The notes below the pieces were generated by a model, which did not search any database, was not told the DNA's origin, and saw only the letters and a program-made list of their open reading frames with translations. Position numbers and translations under genes: made by a program. Of a DNA stretch of 37,100 bases, positions 28,714-31,171 are shown piece by piece (the stretch's first letter is position 1; every line of letters starts with the position of its first letter). Origin of the DNA: Candidatus Tayloriibacteriota bacterium (GTDB taxonomy: Bacteria > Patescibacteriota > Minisyncoccia > Phycocordibacterales > PALSA-1337); assembly GCA_903839695.1 (NCBI GenBank), contig CAIMDI010000031.1, positions 1-37,100 of the forward strand. Direction: 5' to 3'.

Positions 28714-29649
28714 ATGGACAAAAAAAATATAACTGAAAGACTTGTAAAAACCAAGTATTTACTCGAATCAATGATAGGTATAATAATCATCATTACCATA
28801 ATTTCTACTTATGTATTAGTAAGATTCAATCAAGTCTCAAACACAGTTTTGAGCTTATCAAATCAATTAAATTCACTGGAAAACAAATTTGCATCAACCA
28901 CAAGTGATTTACGTACAAACATAAACAAAAATCATGATGCATTAACAACAGCCATAAACCAGGAGCAACAAAATGTAGGAAATATTGAACAAAAACTAGG
29001 AAATTACAGCCAACAAGTCGGTGATGTATCAAATACCGTAAGTACATTACAAAAGTTAAGCAAAACTGATCCTGAATTACTTATAAAATATTCCAAAGTA
29101 TTTTTCTTAAATGAAAATTATGCCCCATCAAGACTTTCTGAAATCCCAGAACAATACAAATATTCTAATACAAAAATATTAAAAATAAATTCTCAAGTTT
29201 TGCCATATTTACAAAGAATGATTGAGGATGCCAAAAATGCAAATAATTTACTTTATGTATATTCTGCATTCAGATCTTTCAATGAACAGAAATCCCTTAA
29301 AGGCCAATACTCAATTGTATATGGTTCAGGATCAGCAAATTCATTTTCAGCAGATCAAGGATATTCTGAGCATCAACTTGGAACAACTATAGATTTTATA
29401 ACCCCAGGACTTGGAGGAAATTTAGATGGATTTGATACCACAGAGTCATATAAATGGCTATTAAACAATGCGTATCGTTATGGTTATATATTATCATATC
29501 CCAAAAATAATAAATTCTACGTTTTTGAGCCTTGGCATTGGAGATTCATAGGAATAAAACTTGCTACTGATCTACACAATCAAGGAAAGAGTTTTTATGA
29601 TATGGATCAGAGAGATATTGATGAATATTTAGTTTCTGTTTTTGATTAA
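28714..29649 (+). CDS. Membrane-anchored D,D-carboxypeptidase, VanY (M15B) family
   Basis: A 311-residue peptidase expected to trim the terminal D-Ala of peptidoglycan stem peptides. A membrane helix (about residues 20-40) anchors it. A coiled-coil spacer (about 40-115, with SLSNQLNSLENKF) leads to the VanY domain. The zinc site is visible as SEHQLGTTIDF (His and Asp) and EPWHWRFIG (Glu and His), with YSAFRSFNEQ upstream. The frame is open to 28672, but that part overlaps the previous terminator. The ATG at 28714 lies 7 nt after TAACAT preceded by TGT. It complements alr in wall metabolism. Confidence 0.9.
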   Translation: MDKKNITERLVKTKYLLESMIGIIIIITIISTYVLVRFNQVSNTVLSLSNQLNSLENKFASTTSDLRTNINKNHDALTTAINQEQQNVGNIEQKLGNYSQQVGDVSNTVSTLQKLSKTDPELLIKYSKVFFLNENYAPSRLSEIPEQYKYSNTKILKINSQVLPYLQRMIEDAKNANNLLYVYSAFRSFNEQKSLKGQYSIVYGSGSANSFSADQGYSEHQLGTTIDFITPGLGGNLDGFDTTESYKWLLNNAYRYGYILSYPKNNKFYVFEPWHWRFIGIKLATDLHNQGKSFYDMDQRDIDEYLVSVFD

Positions 29650-29653
29650 TCAA

Positions 29654-30922
29654 ATGAATAATGAATTATATGACATTGCAATAATAGGCGGAGGACCAGC
29701 TGGCATGATGGCTGCCGGTAGAGCTGCAGAAATTGGAGGAAAAAATAATTTAAAAGTAATTCTCATTGAAAAAAATCCTTCTCTAGGAGCCAAACTTCTA
29801 ATAACTGGAGGTGGTAGATGTAATATCACAAATGCACAATTTGATATTAGAACATTCTTAAGTAAATACAAAGACAGTGACAAATTTCTATTTTCAGCTT
29901 TTTCTCAATTTGATGTAAAAAAGACAATTGAATTTTTTAATGAAAAAGGAATGGCCACAAAAACTGAAGCTGGTAATCGTGTATTTCCTGAAAGCGATAA
30001 ATCTCAATCTGTTTTAAATGTACTTGTAGATTATATGAGGAAAGGAAATGTTGAGATTCTAACAAATGCAGATGTTATAGGATTTGAAAAAGAAAATAAA
30101 TTAATAAATTGTATAAATCTCAAGAATGGTAAAAAAATATATGCTAAAAAATATATACTTGCAACAGGTGGCACATCTAGACCAGAAACTGGTTCAACTG
30201 GTGATGGATTTAAATGGTTAAAAGAACTTGGTCACAATATTATACCTTCAGACAATGCTCTTGTGCCTATTATGATTGCTGATCAATGGGTAAAAGACGC
30301 GCAAGGCGTTACCCTTCAGGATATCAAACTTACAACTTTCCAAAATAATCAAAAACAAGAATCACATAAAGGCCGACTACTTTTTACACATTTTGGCCTA
30401 AGCGGTCCTACAATATTGAATATGAGCAAAGACATTGGCGAATTATTAAAATATGGTGAGGTTGAAATACGCCTTGATTTATTACCATCTTTTGATCATG
30501 GAATGATGAATTCTAGACTTCAAGAATTATTTAAAATTGATGATAAAAAAATGATAAAAAATTCTCTCAATACATTAGTGCCATCTGCATTAGTCGAAAC
30601 CATTCTACGACTATCATTAATTGATGCCAATAAACAAAATAACAGCATTACAAGAGAAGAAAGAATGAGACTTATTGAAATAATAAAAGCATTATCAATG
30701 CAAGTAAGTGGTTTGCTAGGTGCTGATAAAGCAATTGTTTCTTCAGGAGGAGTGGATCTAACAGAAGTAGATTTTAAAACAATGCAATCAAAATTAATAC
30801 CCAATCTATACCTTATCGGTGATATTTTAAATATAGATAGACCATCAGGTGGTTATAGTCTGCAATTATGTTGGACAACAGGATATGTCGCAGGAAATAA
30901 TACTATAAATGAAGAACTTTAG
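29654..30922 (+). CDS. FAD-dependent oxidoreductase, HI0933/BaiN-like
   Basis: A 422-residue flavoprotein. The N-terminal Rossmann motif is IAIIGGGPAGMMAAGRAAE. LIEKNPSLGAKLLITGGGRCNITN is the family signature, followed by FPESDKSQSV, ATGGTSRPETGSTGDG, and the C-terminal FAD motif YLIGDILNIDRPSGGYSLQ with WTTGYVAG. The length matches the HI0933 family, whose physiological role is mostly unknown; BaiN acts on bile acids in gut clostridia, which should not be assumed here. The ATG at 29654 is chosen because an earlier in-frame codon (29642) overlaps vanY. It is probably co-transcribed with vanY. Confidence 0.88.
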   Translation: MNNELYDIAIIGGGPAGMMAAGRAAEIGGKNNLKVILIEKNPSLGAKLLITGGGRCNITNAQFDIRTFLSKYKDSDKFLFSAFSQFDVKKTIEFFNEKGMATKTEAGNRVFPESDKSQSVLNVLVDYMRKGNVEILTNADVIGFEKENKLINCINLKNGKKIYAKKYILATGGTSRPETGSTGDGFKWLKELGHNIIPSDNALVPIMIADQWVKDAQGVTLQDIKLTTFQNNQKQESHKGRLLFTHFGLSGPTILNMSKDIGELLKYGEVEIRLDLLPSFDHGMMNSRLQELFKIDDKKMIKNSLNTLVPSALVETILRLSLIDANKQNNSITREERMRLIEIIKALSMQVSGLLGADKAIVSSGGVDLTEVDFKTMQSKLIPNLYLIGDILNIDRPSGGYSLQLCWTTGYVAGNNTINEEL

Positions 30923-30961
30923 AAAATATTTTTTATCATCATATGCAAATCATCTTAAGTA

Positions 30962-30989
30962 TTGACTTTAAAAAATACTGCGCTAATAT
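30962..30989 (+). promoter_or_regulatory. Putative promoter of the 30996 small RNA
   Basis: TTGACT (30962-30967), a 16-nt spacer and TAATAT (30984-30989); alternative -10 boxes TATATA and TATAAG overlap. A start near 30996 coincides with the first base-paired helix of the RNA. Confidence 0.5.
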
Positions 30990-30995
30990 ATAAGT

Positions 30996-31080
30996 GTGTC
31001 TGCGGGTCGTCAGACCTATCTGGCCAATTTTGAGCTAGAGACAGGCACATTAAAGTACGCCACCATGTGTGGCGTTTTTT
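30996..31080 (+). ncRNA. Candidate stand-alone structured small RNA
   Basis: An ~85-nt unit between convergent genes, with its own promoter and terminator and no ORF. It folds as a three-way junction. The closing helix TGTCT (30997-31001) pairs with AGACA (31039-31043), and GTG pairs with CAC across a 2-nt GG bulge. Inside are GGTC-GTCA-GACC (31005-31016) and TGGC/GCTA (31021-31037, 9-nt loop). A linker then leads to the terminator at 31057. No downstream plus-strand gene exists, so it is not a riboswitch leader. I do not recognise a known RNA family. Confidence 0.5.
31057..31080 (+). terminator. Terminator of the small RNA
   Basis: ACGCCAC-CATGT-GTGGCGT is a perfect 7-bp stem followed by TTTTTT. 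It is oriented with the plus strand and lies 134 bp after the flavoprotein stop. Confidence 0.85.
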
Positions 31081-31171
31081 AATACCTGATTATCGTCTAA
31101 AAAATGGTATTAAAAAATATTGATGTAACCTCTAATGGTCACATTATAACAAAATATTTGAATATGTTAAA

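Follow-up and report, generated by a model that had tools for sequence, protein, structure and literature searches.

A structured RNA and a convergent LPD3-like protein gene form a two-gene module in Patescibacteria, with a probable role as RNA antitoxin and toxin

An RNA gene between two convergent genes

The window, by which we mean the whole stretch of 37,100 nucleotides analysed here, contains two convergent genes, one for a flavoprotein and one for an ABC-F ATPase, and between them lies a compact unit that a sequence-only reading had described as a stand-alone structured small RNA. That reading had proposed promoter-like boxes, a three-way junction and a strong terminator in a segment that is richer in GC than its surroundings, carries no ORF on its own strand and resembles no recognised RNA class, and our analysis bears out this anatomy. 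What it had overlooked is that the opposite strand at 31050-31097 retains the final 16 codons of a partner gene that has otherwise been deleted. The features are as follows.

29642-30922 (+), flavoprotein gene
30962-30967 (+), -35 box of the RNA promoter, TTGACT, followed by a 16-nt spacer
30984-30989 (+), -10 box of the RNA promoter, TAATAT (9/12 matches over both boxes)
30993-31051 (+), three-way-junction RNA core of ~58-60 nt, based on fold, covariance-model match and covariation
30993-31002/31042-31051 (+), helix P1
31004-31008/31013-31017 (+), helix P2
31019-31026/31031-31039 (+), helix P3
31057-31081 (+), intrinsic terminator: a 7-bp GC-rich hairpin (31057-31075), then a T run
31050-31097 (-), partner-gene remnant, an LPD3-like C-terminus: last 15 codons, DDNQVLKNATHGGVL, plus the stop codon
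31097-31098, junction of a 568-bp deletion, from BLAST of the window against the sister genome
31098-31164 (-), what is left of the DNA that lay 5' of the deleted partner gene, sharing 91% identity with the sister genome
31172-32686 (-), ABC-F ATPase gene

The RNA segment has a predicted minimum free energy of -37.6 kcal/mol (z = -3.3), and none of 200 shuffles was equally stable. Its GC content of 0.53 exceeds both that of the intergenic DNA on either side (0.21-0.22) and that of the whole window (0.33), and no ORF was found on the + strand of the unit. For the window and seven related loci, a search of the Rfam covariance models (riboswitches, tRNA, SRP, 6S and others) gave no match at the gathering score, and relaxing the threshold to E up to 10 brought in chance matches only. 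The promoter boxes taken alone are within chance, with 19 promoter-like sites found and 15.5 expected; the window promoter gains weight because a better promoter is kept at the same place in homologues. A score of at least 9/12 occurs in 56 of 83 homologue upstream regions, compared with ~12 in shuffles, and in 51 of the 83 a -10 box ends immediately 5' of the RNA. A terminator stands 3' of the RNA in 75 of these 83 homologues, compared with ~2 in shuffles, and in the window it overlies the codons left at the 3' end of the deleted gene.

A covarying RNA family

A DNA search returned four close homologues from the same GTDB family, 81-95% identical, in which the RNA core is almost invariant and the neighbouring genes differ. 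Two covariance models were used: R1, which describes the 60-nt core in the window and these four relatives with the terminator excluded, and R2, a broader model of 77 sequences. The window itself is matched at 30991-31053 (covariance model, 68.6 bits, E 2e-18). Among 397 genomes from the order, R1 finds matches in 31, spread across many families; a few of the weakest look like chance. R2 finds matches in 17 of 380 genomes sampled phylum-wide. The RNA is patchy, being present in ~4-8% of genomes, and the named genome records are nearly all Parcubacteria/Patescibacteria, their lineages being Nomura-, Kaiser-, Yanofsky-, Taylor-, Zambryski-, Staskawicz-, Falkow-, Magasanik- and Peregrinibacteria. 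Searches of the open-access literature turned up neither this RNA nor any RNA antitoxin from Patescibacteria.

Covariation in relatives, which the sequence-only reading had put forward as a check, is present as compensatory changes in all three helices. In the 77-sequence alignment, standard pairs make up 93.8% of the cells, both partners have changed in 19 of 22 pairs, and the covariation score reaches 0.273 where shuffles give 0.159, none of 500 shuffles scoring as high; sliding the pairing partners abolishes the signal. Since this alignment was fitted to the model, we repeated the analysis with MAFFT and RNAalifold, which for 55 sequences gave the same junction, with compensatory changes in 12 of 17 pairs. 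G-U cells outnumber A-C cells by 101 to 18, and thus the + strand of the window is the functional RNA strand. The two outcomes named beforehand as counting against an RNA here were a match to a known family and a lack of conservation and covariation; what we found is no known-family match, with conservation and covariation both present.

The family falls into four or more sequence groups, A (that of the window), B, C and D, which are quite different in sequence and share one architecture, group D showing compensatory changes of its own. Sequence variation is concentrated in the P3 loop, and no variable guide segment was seen. Only one locus (L084:1433-1561) has a second adjacent RNA copy, the two lying in tandem, and no partner protein was found there.

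A protein partner encoded tail-to-tail

Three of the four close relatives have a 180-aa ORF whose 3' end points towards the RNA. The arrangement is a general one: most genomes with the RNA encode, tail-to-tail with it, a single-domain protein of 130-187 aa that is related to phage LPD3 domains. All four divergent RNA groups have this same kind of partner. The association was approached from both sides. In the protein-first sample, genome contigs were searched with group C proteins and no RNA information, which yielded 57 loci; R1, which contains group A RNAs only, matches 53 of them, in 52 cases on the opposite strand and convergent. Among 48 intact partner genes, 47 have the RNA directly downstream (45 by R1; L122 and L130 by R2), the sole exception lying in a Mucilaginibacter genome in which R2 finds no RNA. 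The RNA-first sample comprised the 30 R1 matches at E up to 1e-3 from the order-wide search of 397 genomes: 19 have an intact partner gene, four have a truncated gene or remnant (the window, L067, L068 and L080) and seven have none. More loci with a broken gene and an intact RNA exist, for example L119, L145, L146 and L155. In other words, loss of the protein is tolerated and loss of the RNA is almost never seen, which is the pattern expected of a toxin and its antidote. That the RNA is a real, structured gene, and that it belongs to an RNA family and a two-gene module, we hold with very high confidence.

Three individual loci deserve a description of their own. The exceptional gene in Mucilaginibacter pankratovii, a Bacteroidota isolate (L139:2980-3417), encodes a closely similar LPD3-like protein (~50% identical) with an altered C-terminus, and is possibly a recent transfer. 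At L119 the partner gene is apparently interrupted by an insertion, with a transposase-like ORF fragment beside its N-terminal piece, and the RNA is intact. At L039 an LPD3-like gene has no recognisable RNA, and a HicB-like antitoxin gene occupies the convergent position.

What kind of protein is the partner? Its match to Pfam LPD3 (PF18798) is weak, with a best E of 2e-5 and 25.3 bits against a curated cut-off of 27 bits. An AlphaFold model (pLDDT 92.8) finds its best viral-model matches, in BFVD, among LPD3 and other polyvalent phage proteins (probability 0.97-1.0), and searches of the PDB by sequence and by fold gave no match. Four residues are invariant across groups, namely Gly, His, Arg and Ser (G40, H43, R52 and S134 in L100); in the model the His lies in a helix and the Ser in the last strand, with a four-stranded sheet at the C-terminus. 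These residues and the strand order fit the BECR pattern of a His in an N-terminal helix and a Ser/Thr in a C-terminal strand, but no solved BECR fold matches, and a marginal match to PBECR2 appears in only one of 48 members (E 0.066). PADLOC gives only a weak match, to model PDC-M04B, and the protein was not found in plasmids, isolated phages or IMG/VR. As no solved structure matches the model, we infer an RNase fold from topology and residues only, and on that footing we somewhat favour the partner being an RNase toxin.

The window copy as a natural deletion

The sister genome G004 (L006) reveals what the window has lost. By BLAST, window positions 30961-31098 correspond to L006rc 1477-1615 and positions 31097-31164 to L006rc 2184-2251, so that two pieces adjoining in the window are 568 bp apart in the sister genome. 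The deletion took the promoter region of the partner gene and 494 of its 543 bp; the remnant DDNQVLKNATHGGVL corresponds to DDNEVLKNATQGDVL of the intact sister gene, each followed by the stop codon. The RNA, its promoter and its terminator are all intact despite the deletion. The earlier description of a stand-alone RNA therefore holds for the window copy, which now is alone, but only as an orphan made by deletion of its partner gene, and it does not hold elsewhere, where the RNA and a convergently encoded LPD3-like protein together make up a two-gene module. Judged from sequence, the window copy would be an orphan antitoxin whose toxin gene is gone.

The same genome contains a second orphan RNA, of group C type (G000:C30:20682-20749; L095, L172), which has a promoter and a terminator and no partner gene nearby. 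It also retains one LPD3-like gene with a divergent convergent RNA (L061; G000:C10:63887-64168), and thus one possibly complete module and two orphans coexist there.

Phage-borne copies of the RNA

An exact-pattern scan of IMG/VR found the RNA in five contigs (L174-L178), all confirmed by R2, including the helices outside the pattern. Because L174 is nearly identical to L175, and L176 to L177, each pair coming from different samples, the five represent three tailed-phage lineages; RNA-carrying lineages are few, three or four. Two further candidates were left out, L228, which matches the pattern and not the model, and L227, a weak match with a shortened P1. A pattern for group A/B RNAs gave 48 exact matches in IMG/VR, none of which the model confirmed, and a group D pattern gave none.

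The contexts of these copies differ. In L174/L175 the RNA lies just 5' of the gene preceding that for the terminase large subunit, and a search for the host of this phage gave no relative in 287 genomes. In L178, a contig with terminase and portal genes, it has promoter-like boxes of its own; the nearest relatives of the L178 terminase are in Patescibacteria genomes (E 1e-94 to 1e-100), compared with E 1e-23 for known phages. In L176/L177 the RNA takes the place of a tRNA, directly flanked by tRNA-Lys and tRNA-Gly, within an array of 18 tRNA genes (L176:629-2257) that precedes the genes for endolysin, terminase and portal protein. The examined stretches of the five contigs yielded no LPD3-like ORF. 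Retention of the RNA by a phage that lacks the protein suggests that the RNA acts in trans against the protein. Phages carry tRNAs as a defence against tRNA cleavage, and the placement within a tRNA array is therefore a hint, which we offer as conjecture, that the toxin's target is tRNA; we regard this as possible but rather doubtful.

What the RNA might do

We think it probable that the RNA is the antitoxin of an LPD3-like toxin, the two forming a module widespread in Patescibacteria. The LPD3-like protein would be the toxin, probably a metal-independent RNase with the invariant His and Ser in its active site. The folded RNA would bind the protein directly and in trans, masking the active site much as ToxI does that of ToxN. 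Once the RNA is lost, as might happen in an infected cell whose transcription a phage has switched off, the toxin would be set free, and the RNA copies in phages would be antidotes that defuse it. Phage copies consisting of the RNA only, together with the absence of pairing to mRNA start sites described below, are consistent with an RNA that inhibits the protein directly.

Counting against this reading are the Mucilaginibacter protein, for which R2 detects no RNA, the small number of phage lineages with the RNA, and the contrast between a single convergent RNA and the upstream repeats of the type III antitoxins described so far. Several other explanations have to be weighed against this one. 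A type I-like antitoxin would pair with the toxin mRNA through overlapping 3' ends and block or degrade it, as in convergent Bacillus pairs, and here, too, the genes are convergent and have terminators that lie between them or overlap them; 3' overlap is frequent among the type I pairs of Gram-positive bacteria (PMC8167048). The conserved, covarying part of our RNA, however, is a three-way junction outside the coding overlap. Cognate pairing to toxin start regions is not preferred either (-19.7 versus -19.5 kcal/mol, and better in 23 of 47 cases), many partner mRNAs look leaderless, the phage copies come without a toxin 3' end, and the presumed toxin is a folded protein of 150 aa instead of a membrane peptide. 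We consider this mechanism unlikely; the short 3' overlap may play a role, but it leaves the conserved junction and the phage copies unexplained. Equally improbable, in our estimate, is an RNA that serves as cofactor or guide of an RNA-dependent effector or RNA-binding protein instead of inhibiting it: near-obligate pairing and co-diversified RNA groups would fit any dedicated ribonucleoprotein, but 11 of 30 RNA copies lack an intact protein and these, like the phage copies, are left unexplained, and the variation, mainly in the P3 loop, includes no variable guide segment.

Orphan copies in varied contexts might instead suggest a regulatory or housekeeping RNA of the host that simply happens to be found often beside the partner gene. 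Patchy presence argues against a housekeeping role, and the adjacency in 47 of 48 cases excludes coincidence, which makes this reading very unlikely. As for the view that the flavoprotein operon's terminator is all there is, a terminator is indeed present downstream of the flavoprotein gene, but the covarying 60-nt core, the RNA's own promoter and the different upstream genes in relatives speak so strongly for a separate RNA that we reject this view on the conserved core and give it almost no weight. We thus return to the antitoxin of an LPD3-like toxin as our preferred explanation. More tentatively, and with belief somewhat short of even, we envisage a phylum-wide RNA-antitoxin defence of Patescibacteria with a new, probably tRNA-cleaving toxin family, answered by antitoxin RNAs that phages carry, in one lineage within a tRNA array beside replacement tRNAs.

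Comparison with known systems

Type III systems (ToxIN, CptIN and TenpIN) resemble the module in several respects: the protein is a proposed endoRNase, the antitoxin is a structured RNA, RNA and protein co-diversify, and phage-borne mimics are known, phage phiTE carrying a pseudo-ToxI RNA against ToxIN (PMC3475682). The differences are also clear. The antitoxins of known type III systems consist of tandem repeats encoded ahead of the toxin gene, on the same strand and in one operon, whereas here a single RNA unit is convergent and has its own promoter. Type III antitoxins form an H-type pseudoknot, whereas covariation supports a three-way junction here, with extra tertiary pairs possible, and the LPD3-type protein has no detected relation to ToxN or to toxins of the AbiQ, CptN or TenpN type (PDB, sequence and fold). 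Type I pairs with 3' overlap (TxpA/RatA and BsrG/SR4) share with the module convergent RNA and toxin genes and a common terminator region, but their toxins are membrane peptides and not a folded domain of 150 aa, and in our case the conserved part of the RNA lies outside the overlap and no start-site pairing was found.

On the protein side, the likeness to LPD3 (large polyvalent protein-associated domain 3) consists of the weak sequence match and of best structural matches in phage polyvalent proteins, whereas ours is a bacterial protein that stands alone and has an RNA partner of its own. PBECR/BECR RNases (colicin D/E5, RelE, EndoU and barnase) likewise have the His in a helix, the Ser in the last strand and a four-stranded C-terminal sheet, but without a fold match to a solved BECR protein. 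Given these comparisons (PMC8167048, PMC5086642), we do not file the module as a member of a known system. It would be a type III-like RNA-antitoxin system that is set apart by its new toxin family, by an RNA that forms one unit without repeats and by the convergence of the two genes.

Outlook

Patescibacteria are a very large and almost uncultivated group, and their non-coding RNAs and anti-phage biology are nearly unknown. The module adds a well-bounded RNA family for which a protein partner, a usable covariance model and counterparts in phages are at hand. If the proposed roles are true, they would assign a function to LPD3, a domain so far without one that phages also incorporate into polyvalent proteins, and would extend protein-binding RNA antitoxins beyond ToxN-like toxins.
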